64,000 bases of DNA from Maribacter zhoushanensis (GTDB lineage: Bacteria; Bacteroidota; Bacteroidia; Flavobacteriales; Flavobacteriaceae): contig NZ_JARKMR010000008.1 in NCBI RefSeq assembly GCF_029350975.1, positions 1 to 64,000 on the forward strand, given 5' to 3'. The position numbers and the translations under genes are program-made. Shown piece after piece: positions 312 to 32,532 of this stretch. Positions within the stretch are counted from its first letter, which is position 1; every line of letters begins with the position of its first letter. The notes beneath the pieces were generated by a model. It was not told the origin of the DNA and ran no database searches. It was given only the letters and a program-made list of their open reading frames with translations.

Positions 312-947
312 ATGGACTACCTATCCCCTACCTATTTTTTTGATTTTGAAAGTGACGAGATTCAAGATTTGGTTTCTGAATTTAAAAACACCACACTTTC
401 TGAAAAAGAAATTTCCATTGCACTATACAACACGGTAAGAGATACCTGGCGTTATGACCCCTACAGCTTAAGTTTTAATAAAGAGAAATACCGTGCCAGT
501 GAAATTGTAAAACGCACCAACGGTCATTGTATTGATAAATCTATCATCTTGATTGCCGCACTCCGCGCGCTTGGCATACCTGCACGAATTCACTTGGCGA
601 AAGTTAAAAACCATATTGGTGTAGAACGGCTTATTGAAAAATTTGGCTCTAATGAACTTACTCCCCATGGTATGGTAGATGCTTTTATAAATGGTAAATG
701 GCTGAAACTATCGCCAACCTTCAATACATCTTTATGTGAAATGCTACGTGTGGCTCCTTTAGATTTTGATGGAGAAAATGATGCCGTTTTACAAGAATAC
801 AATGAAGAAGGCACCCAGTTTATGGAATACCTAGAAGATTACGGTCATTTTGAGGACCTCCCTCTAACTTTCATGGAACGGAACGCCCGTGAGCACTATC
901 CTAATATTTTTGACACCGGCACCAACCAAACAGAGTTTCAGTTATAG
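312..947 (+). CDS. Transglutaminase-like superfamily protein
   Basis: A 211-residue protein with no signal peptide, so probably cytoplasmic. The core segment around residues 68-95 (RTNGHCIDKSIILIAALRALGIPARI) is the transglutaminase-like/Cys protease signature, with the candidate nucleophile Cys73. A candidate His119 lies in TPHGMVDAFINGKW. The third triad position, usually Asp in a W-x-x-x-D-P-T context, reads KLSPTF here, so Asp appears replaced by Ser. The fold assignment is fairly safe. Whether it acts as a protease, amidase or transglutaminase cannot be told, and no substrate can be named. It stands alone, and the neighbour downstream starts about 90 bases later. Confidence 0.75.
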   Translation: MDYLSPTYFFDFESDEIQDLVSEFKNTTLSEKEISIALYNTVRDTWRYDPYSLSFNKEKYRASEIVKRTNGHCIDKSIILIAALRALGIPARIHLAKVKNHIGVERLIEKFGSNELTPHGMVDAFINGKWLKLSPTFNTSLCEMLRVAPLDFDGENDAVLQEYNEEGTQFMEYLEDYGHFEDLPLTFMERNAREHYPNIFDTGTNQTEFQL

Positions 948-27024: not shown

Positions 27025-28107
27025 TTAAGCGTTTACTATCTTCTCTTGGTGGTTGATAGACTCTTGGTGAATAGCCTTGAACATACGAAGAACAAACTCT
27101 TCACTTAGTCCTTTACTTTCCCCTTCTAGAATCATTGCCCCTAGAATTTGATTCCATCTATTAGATTGAAGTACTGCTACGTTCTTTTGCTTTTTAAGTG
27201 CTCCAATACCATCAGAAACCTTCATTCTTTTTCCTAAAGTCTCTATTAGCTGATTATCGATGATATCAATTTGAGCTCTTAGGTTACTTAATTCTGAATT
27301 GTATTCCGCTTCTGGATCACTTTCTTTTCTGATTCTAAGATCTCTCATGATCTGAACCAATTTCTCTGGTGTAACCTGTTGTGCAGCATCACTCCATGCG
27401 TTATCTGGATCGTGGTGTGTTTCAATCATCAACCCGTCAAAGTTCAAATCTAAAGCTGTTTGCGATACATCAAAAATCATATCTCTCTTACCTGTAATAT
27501 GCGAAGGATCGTTTATTAACGGAAGATCAGGGAACTTGTTCTGAAATTCAATAGCAACTTGCCATTCAGGTATATTTCTATATTTTGTTTTCTCGTAAGT
27601 AGAAAAACCCCTGTGTATTGCTCCTAATTTTTTAATACCTGCAGTATGCAATCTTTCAATACCACCTAACCATAGCGCTAAATCTGGATTTACCGGATTT
27701 TTAACTAATACAATCTTGTCTGTACCTTGTAAAGCATCTGCCAATTCTTGCATGATAAACGGACTAACGGTTGATCTTGCTCCGATCCACAATAAATCGA
27801 TATCATGCTCTAACGCCAACTCTACGTGTGCACGGTTTGCAACTTCCGTAGCTGTCTTTAAACCTGTTTCTTCCTTAACTTTTTGCAACCATTTTAGCCC
27901 TAAAGCACCAACACCTTCAAAATTTCCTGGGCGAGTACGAGGTTTCCAAATACCAGCTCTGTAATAGTTTACATCGGTATCTTTTAGAGAGTGTGCTATA
28001 CCTAACACTTGTTCCTCTGTTTCCGCACTACATGGCCCTGCTATTACTAGTGGATGGTCAAGGTTTAAATCATCCAACCATGTTCTCATTTGTTTTGAAT
28101 TTTCCAT
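27025..28107 (-). CDS. Bifunctional DAHP synthase / chorismate mutase
   Basis: Condenses PEP and erythrose-4-phosphate (first shikimate step) and converts chorismate to prephenate. Residues 1-265 are a type I-beta DAHP synthase (HPLVIAGPCSAETEEQ, GIWKPRTRPGNFEGVG, LLWIGARSTVSPF, VKNPVNPD, GAIHRGFSTY, LPLINDPSHITGKRD). Residues about 270-360 are an AroQ-type chorismate mutase (LSNLRAQIDIIDNQLIETLGKRMKVSDGIGALKK). The fused mutase often serves as the allosteric sensor of the synthase. It is the last gene of the operon, 6 bases after tyrA. Confidence 0.95.
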   Translation of the reverse strand: MENSKQMRTWLDDLNLDHPLVIAGPCSAETEEQVLGIAHSLKDTDVNYYRAGIWKPRTRPGNFEGVGALGLKWLQKVKEETGLKTATEVANRAHVELALEHDIDLLWIGARSTVSPFIMQELADALQGTDKIVLVKNPVNPDLALWLGGIERLHTAGIKKLGAIHRGFSTYEKTKYRNIPEWQVAIEFQNKFPDLPLINDPSHITGKRDMIFDVSQTALDLNFDGLMIETHHDPDNAWSDAAQQVTPEKLVQIMRDLRIRKESDPEAEYNSELSNLRAQIDIIDNQLIETLGKRMKVSDGIGALKKQKNVAVLQSNRWNQILGAMILEGESKGLSEEFVLRMFKAIHQESINHQEKIVNA

Positions 28108-28113
28108 TTTTAC

Positions 28114-28980
28114 TTATTCTATTTCTTGTTTAACGGTATTTCTTTTTAATATTCCTTTAATCTTATTCGTATTATTCATTTCATTATAAATGCCTTCATA
28201 ATCATCTTTCAACAACAATTCTTTAAACGCCGTAAGATTTTGAATGTACTCTTCTAATGTCTCTACTACATTCTCTTTGTTCTGTTTAAAAATTGGTGTC
28301 CACATGGCTGGCGAACTCTTTGCCAAACGCACCGTACTTTCAAATCCACTACCAGCCATATCAAAAATATCGCGCTCGTTCTTTTCTTTTTCTATTACTG
28401 TTTTACCCAACATAAATGAACTTATGTGAGATAAATGAGATACGTATGCTATGTGCTTATCATGTGCTACAGGGTTCATATAGCGTATTCTCATACCTAT
28501 TGCTTGAAAAACCTTTAAAGCTCTTTCCTGAAGCTTAAATGCTGTTAATTCAACCTCGCAAATAATATTTGTTTTATCCTTGAACAGATTATTAATAGCT
28601 GCAGACGGACCTGAAAACTCTGTTCCTGCAATAGGGTGGCAAGCCAAAAAATTTCTTCTCTTTGGATGATGCTCCAACACCTTACAGATCATAGATTTCG
28701 TTGATCCAACATCAAAAACCACACAATCTTCATGAACGGCATCTAAGATCACCGGCAACTCCTTTACCATTACATCTACAGGTATACTAACAATTACCAT
28801 ATCAGCAGATGGCAAATCCTTGTAACTTGCTTTTTTATCTATGACACCCAAACTGATAGCTTCTGTTAAGTGACCGTCATTGGTATCTATACCATAAATA
28901 GTAACGTTTTCTTGAGTAGACTTTATGTCTTTTACCAGAGAACCTCCTATTAAACCAATACCAATTACAAATACATTCAT
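28114..28980 (-). CDS. tyrA: Prephenate dehydrogenase
   Basis: Oxidatively decarboxylates prephenate to 4-hydroxyphenylpyruvate for tyrosine. The N-terminal Rossmann motif is VIGIGLIGGSLVKDI, and family motifs include FDVGSTKSMIC, ACHPIAGTEFSGP, HDKHIAYVSHLSHISSFML and AGSGFESTVRLAKSSPAMW. 288 residues with no fused mutase or ACT domain. The mutase is on the next gene of the same operon. Confidence 0.94.
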   Translation of the reverse strand: MNVFVIGIGLIGGSLVKDIKSTQENVTIYGIDTNDGHLTEAISLGVIDKKASYKDLPSADMVIVSIPVDVMVKELPVILDAVHEDCVVFDVGSTKSMICKVLEHHPKRRNFLACHPIAGTEFSGPSAAINNLFKDKTNIICEVELTAFKLQERALKVFQAIGMRIRYMNPVAHDKHIAYVSHLSHISSFMLGKTVIEKEKNERDIFDMAGSGFESTVRLAKSSPAMWTPIFKQNKENVVETLEEYIQNLTAFKELLLKDDYEGIYNEMNNTNKIKGILKRNTVKQEIE

Positions 28981-29030: not shown

Positions 29031-30179
29031 TTACTCAAATCTGCTTATTGCTTCCTCTATTTTATCTTTTGGTATACAAAGTGAAAAACGAATATAACCT
29101 TCGCCATTACTTCCAAATATGGTTCCTGGGGTAATGAACAGATCTTTTGTATACAATATATTATCTATAAACTCTTCTGACGACACACTATCTTCAGGTA
29201 GTTTTGCCCAAACGAACAACCCTACGGCATTTCGGTCATATGTACAACCTAGCTTATCTACCAATTTAAAAATCAACTCTCTACGTGAATTATATACAGC
29301 GTTTAAATCAGCAAACCAGTCTTCACTACTTTCCAATGCTGCTATAGCTCCTTTTTGTATTCCGTAGAACATACCAGAATCCATATTACTTTTCACCTTC
29401 AAAATTGCATTAATATGCTCTTCGCTACCCAATACAAAACCTACACGCCAACCGGCCATATTAAAGGTCTTGCTCAATGAATTTAATTCTAAACAAACCT
29501 CCTTTGCATTAGGAATACTTAATATACTTGCCGGCTTATCATTTAAGATAAAGCTATACGGATTATCGTTTACCAATAGAATACCATGCTTTTTGGCAAA
29601 GGCTACTATTTTTACAAACTGCTCTTTTGTTGCCGTAGCACCTGTTGGCATATGTGGGTAACTTAACCACATAATTTTCACCTTTGATAAATCTTGCTTA
29701 CCCAAAGCCTCTAAATCTGGAAACCACCCAGTATCTGCGGTTAGGTCATAATACTTAGGTAACGCACCTACCAATTTCGTTACTGACGTATAAGTAGGAT
29801 AACCAGGATTAGGTATTAATACCTCATCACCTTCATTTAAAAAAGCAAGACTGATATGCATAATACCTTCTTTTGACCCCATTAAAGGCAAAATCTCGGT
29901 ATCTGGGTCAGCAACTACATCAAATCTATTCTTATAAAAATTAGCAATGGCACCTCTTAATTGAGGTAAACCTTGATAACTTTGATATTGATGCGCTCCA
30001 TTATCCAATACAGCTTCCTGTATTGCATTCAATACTTGCTGGGAAGGAGCCAAATCTGGACTACCAATACCCATATTAATGATAGCCTTACCCTGAGCCA
30101 TTAAACCACGTACCTCTCTCAATTTTTTTGAGAAGTAGTATTCTTGTACGGTTTCTAACCTTTTAGCGGTTTGTATCAT
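29031..30179 (-). CDS. PLP-dependent class I/II aminotransferase (aromatic pathway)
   Basis: A 382-residue fold-type I aminotransferase. The PLP-binding Lys is in ELNSLSKTFNMAGWRVGF. Other conserved segments are INMGIGSPDLAPSQ at the N-terminus, NPGYPTYTSV, SYPHMPTGATA and the C-terminal YIRFSLC. From its position between pheA and tyrA it most likely transaminates phenylpyruvate and 4-hydroxyphenylpyruvate (or prephenate), which is an inference from context. It overlaps pheA by 4 bases. Confidence 0.9.
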   Translation of the reverse strand: MIQTAKRLETVQEYYFSKKLREVRGLMAQGKAIINMGIGSPDLAPSQQVLNAIQEAVLDNGAHQYQSYQGLPQLRGAIANFYKNRFDVVADPDTEILPLMGSKEGIMHISLAFLNEGDEVLIPNPGYPTYTSVTKLVGALPKYYDLTADTGWFPDLEALGKQDLSKVKIMWLSYPHMPTGATATKEQFVKIVAFAKKHGILLVNDNPYSFILNDKPASILSIPNAKEVCLELNSLSKTFNMAGWRVGFVLGSEEHINAILKVKSNMDSGMFYGIQKGAIAALESSEDWFADLNAVYNSRRELIFKLVDKLGCTYDRNAVGLFVWAKLPEDSVSSEEFIDNILYTKDLFITPGTIFGSNGEGYIRFSLCIPKDKIEEAISRFE

Positions 30180-31003
30180 TGTCTTACATTTTTATATTCA
30201 CCCAAAATCTTAAAGTCTTCTGCCATGATGTTCAATAGACTTTTTGCCTTTGAGAAATCAGCATAATCAGTAAATGTTACATCCACAAAAAATGCATATT
30301 TCCATGGTGTTTCTATTACTGGTAACGACTGTATTTTTGTCAAGTTCAATCGGCAATCGCTCATAACATTAAGCACAGCAGCCAAACTTCCCCTTTTATG
30401 GTCGGTAATGAACCTTAATGAAGCCTTGGTAATCTCTACCTCTGGCAATGCATCATTTTTTGTTTTTACAATGATAAAACGAGTGGCATTATTTTTAATA
30501 GTCTGTATGTCGCTCGCTACGATGTCCAACCCATATAATTCTGCCGCAACGTTTGGTGCTATGGCAGCTACATGCTTTAATTCCTGTTCTTGAATTCTCT
30601 TTGCAGTCTCGGCCGTATCTACATCTTCTACCAATTTTATATCTGGATATTGCCTAAAATATTCTTTACACTGCAGTAATGCCATTGGGTGAGAACTAAC
30701 TTCTTTAATATCTTCTATTTTTTGCCCTTTCAGCATCATTAAATTATGATGGATGTTTAAATAATACTCCCCGATAATATGTAGGTCATTATGATTTACC
30801 AATGCGTAATTCGGTATTATTGAACCCGCAATAGAATTCTCGATTGCCATTACACCTTGGTCAGCTTCTTTAGATAATAATTTATCTACCAAAGCATCAA
30901 AAGAAAGACACTCTATCAACTCTATATCATCACCAAAACAATCTTTTGCTACTTGATGGTGGTTGCTTCCTTTAATTCCCTGAATGGCTATTTTTAAACT
31001 CAT
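30176..31003 (-). CDS. pheA: Prephenate dehydratase
   Basis: Converts prephenate to phenylpyruvate. The catalytic domain (1-180) shows IAQGIKGSNHHQ-type N-terminus, MAIENSIAGSIIPNY, VSSHPMALLQCKEY and the TRF motif (NATRFIIVKTKND). The C-terminal ACT domain (about 195-270) has GSLAAVLNVMSDCRLNLTKIQSLPVIETPWKY. The Phe-binding ESRP motif of other PDTs reads QSLP here, so Phe feedback inhibition may be altered. It is the first gene of the Phe/Tyr operon, and its 5' leader carries the attenuator listed separately. Confidence 0.94.
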   Translation of the reverse strand: MSLKIAIQGIKGSNHHQVAKDCFGDDIELIECLSFDALVDKLLSKEADQGVMAIENSIAGSIIPNYALVNHNDLHIIGEYYLNIHHNLMMLKGQKIEDIKEVSSHPMALLQCKEYFRQYPDIKLVEDVDTAETAKRIQEQELKHVAAIAPNVAAELYGLDIVASDIQTIKNNATRFIIVKTKNDALPEVEITKASLRFITDHKRGSLAAVLNVMSDCRLNLTKIQSLPVIETPWKYAFFVDVTFTDYADFSKAKSLLNIMAEDFKILGEYKNVRQ

Positions 31004-31105
31004 AATTCTAATTTCTACTAACCTGCAAACCTTTTCAACTTTATCAAAACCCCAACTTTAAAATTTACTGTTGGTGCTTATATGATTTGACTTTTGAACA
31101 AAAAA

Positions 31106-31129
31106 AAGTTCCGATACATATCGGAACTT
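31106..31129 (-). terminator. Attenuator terminator of the pheA leader
   Basis: A perfect 11-bp inverted repeat AAGTTCCGATA / TATCGGAACTT with a 2-base centre. On the minus strand it runs straight into eight U residues (31100-31107 on the plus strand is all A). It lies 27 bases after the leader peptide stop and upstream of pheA, so it terminates within the leader and not after a gene. Confidence 0.9.
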
Positions 31130-31155
31130 AGATTCTATTTTATATTTAAAATATA

Positions 31156-31227
31156 CTACAACAGTCCCGTACCTCTCTTAAAAAAGAAGTAAAAATAAAA
31201 ACCGTTCCAGAAATATTGTTTTGTCAT
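31156..31227 (-). CDS. Phe/Tyr-rich leader peptide (pheL-like)
   Basis: An ORF of 23 codons plus TAG. It begins MTKQ, its residues 5-16 read YFWNGFYFYFFF and it ends KRGTGLL. It thus has six Phe, three Tyr and one Trp among 12 consecutive residues. The ORF lies about 150 bases upstream of pheA, with a U-tract terminator between. The aromatic run stops 10 bases before the antiterminator segment, a spacing suitable for ribosome-stalling control. Such a run by chance, upstream of exactly this operon, is very unlikely. Function is by analogy with E. coli pheL; the sequence itself is unrelated. Confidence 0.82.
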   Translation of the reverse strand: MTKQYFWNGFYFYFFFKRGTGLL

Positions 31228-31266
31228 TGTGCTTGTAAACTTTAGCTAATGTAGTAATTATATTTA

Positions 31267-31287: not shown

Positions 31288-31374
31288 ATTTTTTTAAAAA
31301 ATTCAATATCTATCTCAAAAAGTGAAGTTTTTGTGTTAAAAATTAAATTAAACATGAATTACTCATTAAAATAA

Positions 31375-31400
31375 AAAAGACCTCTAATTAGAGGTCTTTT
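31375..31400 (-). terminator. Terminator of the lipoprotein gene
   Basis: A perfect 26-base palindrome AAAAGACCTCTAA/TTAGAGGTCTTTT lies 23 bases after the lipoprotein stop, with T-runs on both strands. It insulates the pheA leader from upstream transcription. Confidence 0.92.
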
Positions 31401-31422
31401 AAATATAATCAAGAGTTACGTT

Positions 31423-32532
31423 TTATTTTTTATTGAAAAAATATTCGTAAAGTTCTGTTTCACCATTAAAAGTATCTGATTCTGAAATAATTAATTCATT
31501 GGCTGAAAGTCTTATTTCTCCTTCTAACAATAAGTAACCTTCCGGCTCTACATCCGTATAAGTTTCACCGTCTTCCGTTTCTGTATATTCAAATTCAACC
31601 AAGGTCAAAACATTCTCCTCTTCGTTAAAAGCCCAGTTACCTGATGATGTATAAGACTCTCCACCATCTTCTTCATATATAACCTCACAAGCTTCATTAG
31701 ATGCTGTGTAATCCAAGTTTTTATAATCAGATTCTTGGCTAAAGAAATAAGTCCCGTTTTCATTAAATGTAATTAGTAAATTATCAAGGGTATAGCAATC
31801 ATCCAATTCCACATCTAATTGAGTTCCATTATCGCAAAATAACGTAGAATCATAACTATCACATGATTCTTCACCAACGGCAATTGTTTCTCCATTATCT
31901 ATTTGTTTTGTAAAATCCCAGTCGCCCACAAGATTAACATTACCTCCCCATGATTCAACTGTTACACAAACTTCTACTGGCTGACTAATGTTACCTTGGC
32001 TGTCATATACACAAATTGCATAACAAAATGTTCCGGCAGGAACAGTATTAGAAAAATTGACATCAATTACAGTATCCTCATCTTTTTGAGTCGATGCACC
32101 TTTTTTTGTGAAAATATCTTTTCTTTCTTTTGATAAAAATTTACCTCCATAATAATTATCTGTAGCACTTGATGGCACATCAATATAACTATCAGCCATA
32201 CCATTTTCATCAAACAATTGGATATAGGCTCCGGCAAAATCTGTAGGCGCATCAAATATGATTTCAAAACCATAATCTTGAAATGCGGTTTGTTTAGAAT
32301 AATCTAAATTGAAGTCTATACCTCCCGTTGGCGTTACGCCACCATCATTCATTGTAGCACCATCAATTGCAATACCTGAGGAAGTAGCATTAATATCTAA
32401 TAAATCTTCTTCTACTACATTAACTCCGTCTGGATCAATTTCATCGGATAGACTCTCATTAGCATCATCACTAGAACAAGAAAAGATGATCATACTTAAA
32501 AAGAACAGAATAAATAAATTGGTTTTTTTCAT
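31423..32532 (-). CDS. Lipoprotein with C-terminal lipocalin-like domain
   Basis: A 369-residue protein with an SPII signal (LFFLSMIIFSC, lipidated Cys19). The mature N-terminus is very acidic. Residues about 70-200 form a beta-rich domain, and from about residue 205 (GDWDFTKQIDNGETI...LLITFNENGTYFFSQES ... YTSSGNWAFNEEENVLTLVEF) the pattern is that of lipocalin-like domains common in Bacteroidetes lipoproteins. No specific ligand can be inferred. It is a monocistronic unit with its own terminator. Confidence 0.75.
   Translation of the reverse strand: MKKTNLFILFFLSMIIFSCSSDDANESLSDEIDPDGVNVVEEDLLDINATSSGIAIDGATMNDGGVTPTGGIDFNLDYSKQTAFQDYGFEIIFDAPTDFAGAYIQLFDENGMADSYIDVPSSATDNYYGGKFLSKERKDIFTKKGASTQKDEDTVIDVNFSNTVPAGTFCYAICVYDSQGNISQPVEVCVTVESWGGNVNLVGDWDFTKQIDNGETIAVGEESCDSYDSTLFCDNGTQLDVELDDCYTLDNLLITFNENGTYFFSQESDYKNLDYTASNEACEVIYEEDGGESYTSSGNWAFNEEENVLTLVEFEYTETEDGETYTDVEPEGYLLLEGEIRLSANELIISESDTFNGETELYEYFFNKK

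Follow-up and report, generated by a model that had tools for sequence, protein, structure and literature searches.

A very probable ribosome-mediated attenuator with Phe and Tyr codons upstream of pheA in Maribacter zhoushanensis and its relatives

Attenuators of the pheL, trpL and hisL kind combine a leader open reading frame (ORF) rich in codons for the pathway product with a terminator, an antiterminator, a protector stem (pairing of segments 1 and 2) and an upstream promoter, and their read-through responds to charged tRNA. In the enteric pheL system, a Phe-rich leader peptide, an antiterminator and a terminator precede pheA. Comparative papers on attenuation have reportedly been published by Vitreschak, Lopatovskaya and Lyubetsky. 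Rfam family RF01692 (Bacteroid-trp) represents a trp leader of Bacteroidetes (PMC2864571), and in Bacteroides thetaiotaomicron, long 5' regions have been noted to contain short ORFs that resemble leader peptides (PMC7366714). A structured 5' element upstream of pheA is conserved in Flavobacteriaceae, including Flavobacterium psychrophilum, and was listed among the conserved elements without Rfam hits in a study that also reported strong clues for leader-peptide attenuation upstream of amino-acid operons (PMC9723704, 2021).

The locus described here lies in a window of 64,000 nucleotides from Maribacter zhoushanensis (assembly GCF_029350975.1, contig NZ_JARKMR010000008.1, positions 1 to 64,000 of the forward strand), in which a leader ORF rich in codons for the pathway product is placed before the first gene of an operon, with an intrinsic terminator in the 152 nt between the leader stop and pheA (Table 1). 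This arrangement is very probably a classical ribosome-mediated attenuator of transcription; stalling, sensing and the direction of control are inferred from its anatomy, conservation, co-variation and spacing. The first-pass annotation had proposed a classical Phe/Tyr attenuator, a reading that conservation, co-variation and spacing bear out in substance. The 23-codon minus-strand ORF at 31156-31227 (MTKQYFWNGFYFYFFFKRGTGLL) is present where it had been placed, and residues 5-16 read YFWNGFYFYFFF as claimed. The inner hairpin, a promoter-like box, the probable protector stem, a Trp codon and a wide taxonomic reach are added by the present analysis. The operon had been given as pheA, an aminotransferase, tyrA and a DAHP synthase-chorismate mutase; the four genes look so, but the NCBIfam cut-off is passed by the prephenate dehydrogenase only, and the substrate of the aminotransferase is left unassigned because this protein falls below its cut-off. 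The upstream neighbour gene ends in a terminator-like hairpin of its own (31375-31400).

Table 1. Features of the pheA leader and operon, in positions of the window
Feature	Position	Strand	Remarks
Promoter-like box	31246-31253	minus	TACATTAG; 18 nt 5' of leader ATG
Leader ORF	31156-31227	minus	MTKQYFWNGFYFYFFFKRGTGLL, then stop; ATG + 22 sense codons + TAG
Probable segment 1	31198-31206	minus	AACGGTTTT, Asn-Gly-Phe codons; can pair with 31160-31168 (protector stem)
Inner hairpin	31170-31191	minus	Tyr-Phe-Phe codons 31183-31191 with Lys-Arg-Gly codons 31170-31178; abuts segment 2
Segment 2, antiterminator strand	31163-31169	minus	CGGGACT; within last leader codons
Terminator hairpin	31106-31129	minus	AAGTTCCGAT(ATGT)ATCGGAACTT; 10 bp, 4-nt loop
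Run of eight T	31100-31107	minus	
pheA, prephenate dehydratase	30176-31003	minus	
Class I aminotransferase	29031-30179	minus	
tyrA, prephenate dehydrogenase	28114-28980	minus	
DAHP synthase with chorismate mutase domain	27025-28107	minus	

Aromatic-rich short ORFs (ATG start, 8-60 amino acids, at least seven F, Y or W in 12 residues) occur 22 times on both strands of 444 kb of the same genome, comprising the window and 19 stretches of 20 kb, and just one of the 22, the pheA leader, has a terminator within 95 nt. A covariance model built on 31 leaders, the window leader among them, gave the pheA leader site 122.3 bits and the runner-up in the genome 39.8 bits, with 150 of 6023 candidates scored.

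Among the genomes listed, 199 belong to the family, nearly all of them to different genera, and at least 186 have a PheA match. From these, 110 loci were taken, comprising the 30 most similar PheA and 80 of the next, with the least similar under-sampled; they represent 109 genera, as L001 (the window) and L031 share one. Leader, terminator and antiterminator segment were detected by script in 104 of the 110 loci, and leader and terminator in 109 once inspection and the covariance model were added. The loci gained in this way include L111 and L139, in which leader and hairpin were seen by eye, and L052 (G109), L104 (G191) and L099 (G051), in which leader and terminator are located farther upstream. 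The exception is L124 (G059), with no leader by inspection and none by the model among 150 scored candidates. In a set of 80 named loci, several of which come from the same genomes as the 110, an aromatic ORF was found in 79, and the 80th begins at the gene with no upstream DNA. Within the genus of the window, the leader is present in 23/23 loci (L001-L023), and L027, the 24th, has a split pheA and only the hairpin within view.

Some of these loci show further peculiarities. In L104 and L099, DNA that looks repeat-like by eye occupies some 240-600 bases between the leader terminator and pheA, which raises the question of whether control still reaches the gene. In L027 (G012) and L023 (G010), of the same genus, pheA appears as two overlapping partial matches, as if split over two frames.

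Aligning relatives had been suggested as a check on the first-pass annotation, and the aromatic leader, the U-tract hairpin and a co-varying antiterminator are indeed kept despite sequence drift: across genera, the peptide varies in length and residues but keeps its aromatic content, and the RNA keeps its pairing and spacing. Among the 104 leaders, the final aromatic codon ahead of segment 2 encodes Phe in 92 and Tyr in 12.

The hairpin and eight U residues that had been placed at 31100-31129 are both there, but the stem has 10 bp rather than the 11 claimed, as an eleventh would shrink the loop to 2 nt. Of the eight T (31107-31100), two belong to the terminator stem, the 5' arm of which (31120-31129) is common to terminator and antiterminator. 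The CGGGACT strand pairs with this arm, as had been proposed, but lies inside the last ORF codons and not beside the stop; with AGTTCCG of the arm it forms 7 bp, including one G-U. In the 104 family loci, the leader tail pairs with the terminator 5' arm of its own locus at -11.30 kcal/mol, compared with -9.10 kcal/mol for swapped arms (sd 0.19; 0/2000), and in 22 further loci at -12.91 compared with -8.99 (sd 0.59; 0/2000), counts that are not probabilities, since the loci share kinship. Shuffled leader tails pair at -5.41 (104 loci) and -5.87 (22 loci), and the own value is reached by at most 2/50 tail shuffles in 96/104 and 19/22 loci. The 22 further loci were hand-picked, 17 from other families and five from Flavobacteriaceae; L161, L179, L180, L183 and L187 were left out although they passed the script, and a further six loci of Flavobacterium (L142, L143, L145, L147, L148 and L150) were left out as well. 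Segment 2 and the arm change jointly between loci, as in CGGGACT/AGTCCCG, CGAGAC/GTCTCG, GAGGCTTT/AAAGCCTC and GCCGGG/CCCGGC, with the scripted choice of segment 2 doubtful in L043, L044, L119, L132 and L163.

The position of segment 2 relative to the regulatory codons is also maintained. Counting from the first nucleotide of the last aromatic codon, segment 2 begins after 11-15 nt in 94 of the 104 loci (14 nt in 45 and 13 nt in 21) and, in the window, 13 nt from the last Phe codon; in the set of 22 further loci, the distance is 9-15 nt in 21. The footprint of a ribosome extends up to about 12 nt downstream (PMC4833913), so that with a spacing of 11-15 nt segment 2 would remain just free during a stall at the last Phe codon. 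The antiterminator excludes the terminator by pairing, and its placement fits such an exposure by a stalled ribosome. This geometry suggests a search rule for similar leaders: the antiterminator strand would lie within the last codons of the leader or directly behind them, at about 11-15 nt from the last regulatory codon.

Upstream of the leader ORF, a promoter-like box resembles the Bacteroidota -7 consensus TAnnTTTG (PMC9723704), and transcription is predicted to start near 31239. The pattern TAnnTT[TA]G occurs in the 90 nt or less upstream in 97/104 loci, compared with 12.6% of shuffled sequences. A transcription start downstream of 31156, which the first-pass annotation had named as an observation that would speak against it, looks unlikely given this box 5' of the ORF, judged by motif only.

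In the mechanism proposed, a shortage of charged tRNA-Phe or tRNA-Tyr, and in many genera perhaps also of charged tRNA-Trp, would stall the ribosome on the aromatic codons with its front edge just short of segment 2, which would then pair with the terminator 5' arm and let RNA polymerase continue through pheA and the operon genes behind it. With ample charged tRNA, the ribosome would reach the stop codon and cover segment 2, and the terminator would form. Where there is no ribosome, segment 1 may hold segment 2 around the inner hairpin, favouring termination, which is the least certain step. Folding of the full window leader favours the terminator at every ribosome placement; when transcription has got no further than the 5' arm, folding favours the antiterminator, so the read-through decision must be kinetic. 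The terminated leader RNA or its peptide might in addition act in trans, which is compatible with attenuation, and both a short RNA and a peptide would presumably be released under rich supply; rnTrpL and peTrpL of Sinorhizobium reportedly act in this way, and such a second role is here considered quite improbable.

Two further elements are located within the leader ORF. The inner hairpin has a folding energy of -5.00, compared with -1.25 after synonymous recoding, and is more stable than its synonymously recoded versions in each of the four groups of leaders (mean z -2.95, -1.32, -2.38 and -3.91). The full-length fold of the window leader encloses it in a stem between AACGGUUUU (31198-31206) and GGGACUGUU (31160-31168); in their consensus folds, 39 window-type leaders share a similar structure, and 29 KRNE-type leaders the inner hairpin only. 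For the core of segment 2 alone, no upstream partner was found (-3.87 own compared with -4.37 shuffled), and a longer tail was used in a repeat of the protector test because the leader fold suggested that pairing extends past the core. With this tail, segment 1 pairs at -10.36 in the 39 window-type leaders, compared with -5.62 when codon order is shuffled, and the own value is reached by 0/2000 permutations in three groups (these leaders, 36 others of the family, and the 22 further loci); the signal is absent in the 29 KRNE-type leaders, in which 611/2000 permutations reach it. When the window leader is folded with the 5' arm but not yet the 3' arm, and with no ribosome, the antiterminator is preferred to the protector, which weakens the protector step. 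With this mixed support, the pairing of segment 1 with the tail is considered a probable protector stem.

Pairs with two-sided change were counted in alignment A3 only, which comprises 31 close leaders of equal length, because alignment A1 (106 loci) mis-registers segment 2 between leader types; in A3, two rows, those of L001 (the window) and of L031, are shifted by one column in the terminator arm and are scored as broken. Pairing across these leaders is 94-96% in each of the four helices. The terminator helix has three pairs with two-sided change, a result reached by 0/500 shuffles, and the inner hairpin is marginal (14/500). The antiterminator has one such pair and the protector none (covariation score reached by 131/500 and 216/500 shuffles, respectively), and these two near-invariant helices say little within the 31 close leaders.

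Conservation within the genus bears on attenuation and on another reading. In favour of attenuation, codons 13-16 are invariant in 24 same-genus leaders and codon 22 is always CTG, although this triplet makes up 3.8% of Leu codons in eight window genes; against it, codon 5, which lies outside all helices, is invariant too. In the other reading, the ORF encodes a small membrane peptide that is functional and followed by a terminator of its own, but does not regulate pheA. In its favour, the peptide is hydrophobic and nearly invariant in the genus, also at codons that the helices do not cover. Across genera, however, residues and length drift while aromatic content, pairing and spacing are kept, the inner hairpin exceeds synonymous recoding, and the covariance model finds no second strong leader copy among the 150 of 6023 candidates scored in the genome, which makes a membrane peptide highly improbable.

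A ligand-binding riboswitch, a T-box or a protein-bound leader that merely contains an ORF would also have a structured 5' region with a terminator. The Rfam library includes T-box and riboswitch families, yet no Rfam family matches the window leader at E<=1, the T-box model included, and conservation falls on codons and on helices that exclude each other, so that this reading, too, is very unlikely. The trp leader model RF01692 (gathering score 49) matches neither the window leader at E<=1 nor the leaders of 18 pheA loci, and at the gathering threshold Rfam 15 has no match over these 18 leaders. RF01859 (Phe_leader) leaves the window leader unmatched, its lone match of 28.1 bits (gathering score 55) being at 31371-31427, over the terminator of the neighbouring gene. 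The sole Rfam hit in the 18 loci is outside the leader, a Flavo-1 RNA (RF01705, 78.6 bits) in L077 at 446-523 (plus strand), 5' of the pheA leader and on the opposite strand. Translational re-initiation, in which the leader ORF would feed ribosomes to pheA and which has been proposed for leader ORFs near genes, Bacteroidetes included, is scarcely credible for a leader separated from pheA by 152 nt and a terminator that is kept across loci, compared with 11-14 bp in the Bacteroidetes proposal (PMC4833913).

The attenuator design extends beyond Flavobacteriaceae. In other families of the order, it is present in 4/6 loci (L024, L025 and L026, and L029 by eye), and no leader was found in L028 and L030. 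Beyond the order, the script finds it in 19 of 31 loci (L156-L161, L163-L167 and L174-L193), which are the better PheA matches and four weaker ones, so that this frequency is not that of the phylum. A further five of these loci have an aromatic ORF and hairpin by eye (L165, L181, L186, L188 and L189), and the other seven (L156-L158 and L190-L193) are without a leader; in L156-L158, apparent coding sequence reaches pheA, judged by eye. According to kinship labels, L163, L174, L176 and L182 are from outside the class, and either age or transfer must therefore be considered. In family f23, all 30 best-matching loci have at least one aromatic leader ORF, and 11 of them (L294-L299, L304, L306, L314, L315 and L317) have two in series before pheA, with both hairpins detected by script in eight of the 11. 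Two aromatic leaders are also present in L180, from another family.

The reading that aromatic ribosome-sensing attenuators are ancestral to pheA operons in much of Bacteroidota and near relatives, in tandem in one family, is slightly favoured. If it is true, transcription and translation would be closely coupled in Bacteroidota, in which translation starts largely without Shine-Dalgarno sites. Attenuation works only with a ribosome close behind RNA polymerase, so a reporter could test this coupling. The pheA leader also provides a well-preserved example, with its helices named, of apparent ribosome-mediated attenuation outside proteobacteria, and the leader alignments are ready for a new RNA family.

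The same genome has leaders before other amino-acid genes, which were judged by eye and, for trp, also by Rfam. The trpE leader (L173, G000:C15, minus strand, 2132-2017) encodes MKNLIANTWWWNNLRKTS with a WWW run, is followed by a hairpin and matches RF01692 with 51.4 bits against a cut-off of 49. Upstream of hisG (L168, G000:C11, minus strand, 2208-2155), a His-rich leader (MKNRTTHHHFHIHAQAR) precedes a hairpin near 2124-2094 and then TTTTGTATTT, with no run of five T; this is likely a His attenuator. Before both genes, the gene strand lacks five T in a row, and the terminator script therefore detected no hairpin there. In a family genome without a PheA match (G069), a leader (MTNNNTWWSNSKFYLKR) with a hairpin (L329) looks like a Trp leader. 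A sensor of three amino acids, including Trp, is a possible reading of the pheA leader: a Trp codon is present in 74 of 104 leaders, but the Flavobacterium leaders examined are without Trp. Sensing of Trp by the pheA leader is weakened by the presence of the separate WWW leader before trpE.

The kind of attenuator and the family-level pheA element were already known, and the novelty is modest. The element reported previously concerns the same gene and family as the window leader, and the passages that describe it give no peptide, helices or taxonomic limits (PMC9723704). A search of the open-access literature, with most subscription journals outside its scope, found no detailed description of this Phe/Tyr leader; as far as that literature tells, what is new is the detailed anatomy together with the spacing, the tandem copies and the wider taxonomic reach. 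The tandem leaders of f23 resemble the tandem attenuators of Salmonella mgtCBR in having two leader ORFs in series, but genes and signals differ (PMC3641672). Bacteroid-trp (RF01692) is a leader of the same phylum, but with Trp codons and before the trp operon. Like enteric pheL (RF01859), the window leader combines a Phe-rich peptide with an antiterminator and a terminator before pheA; unlike enteric pheL, leaders of the present kind also have Tyr and often Trp codons, and the operon that follows also includes tyrA and DAHP synthase.
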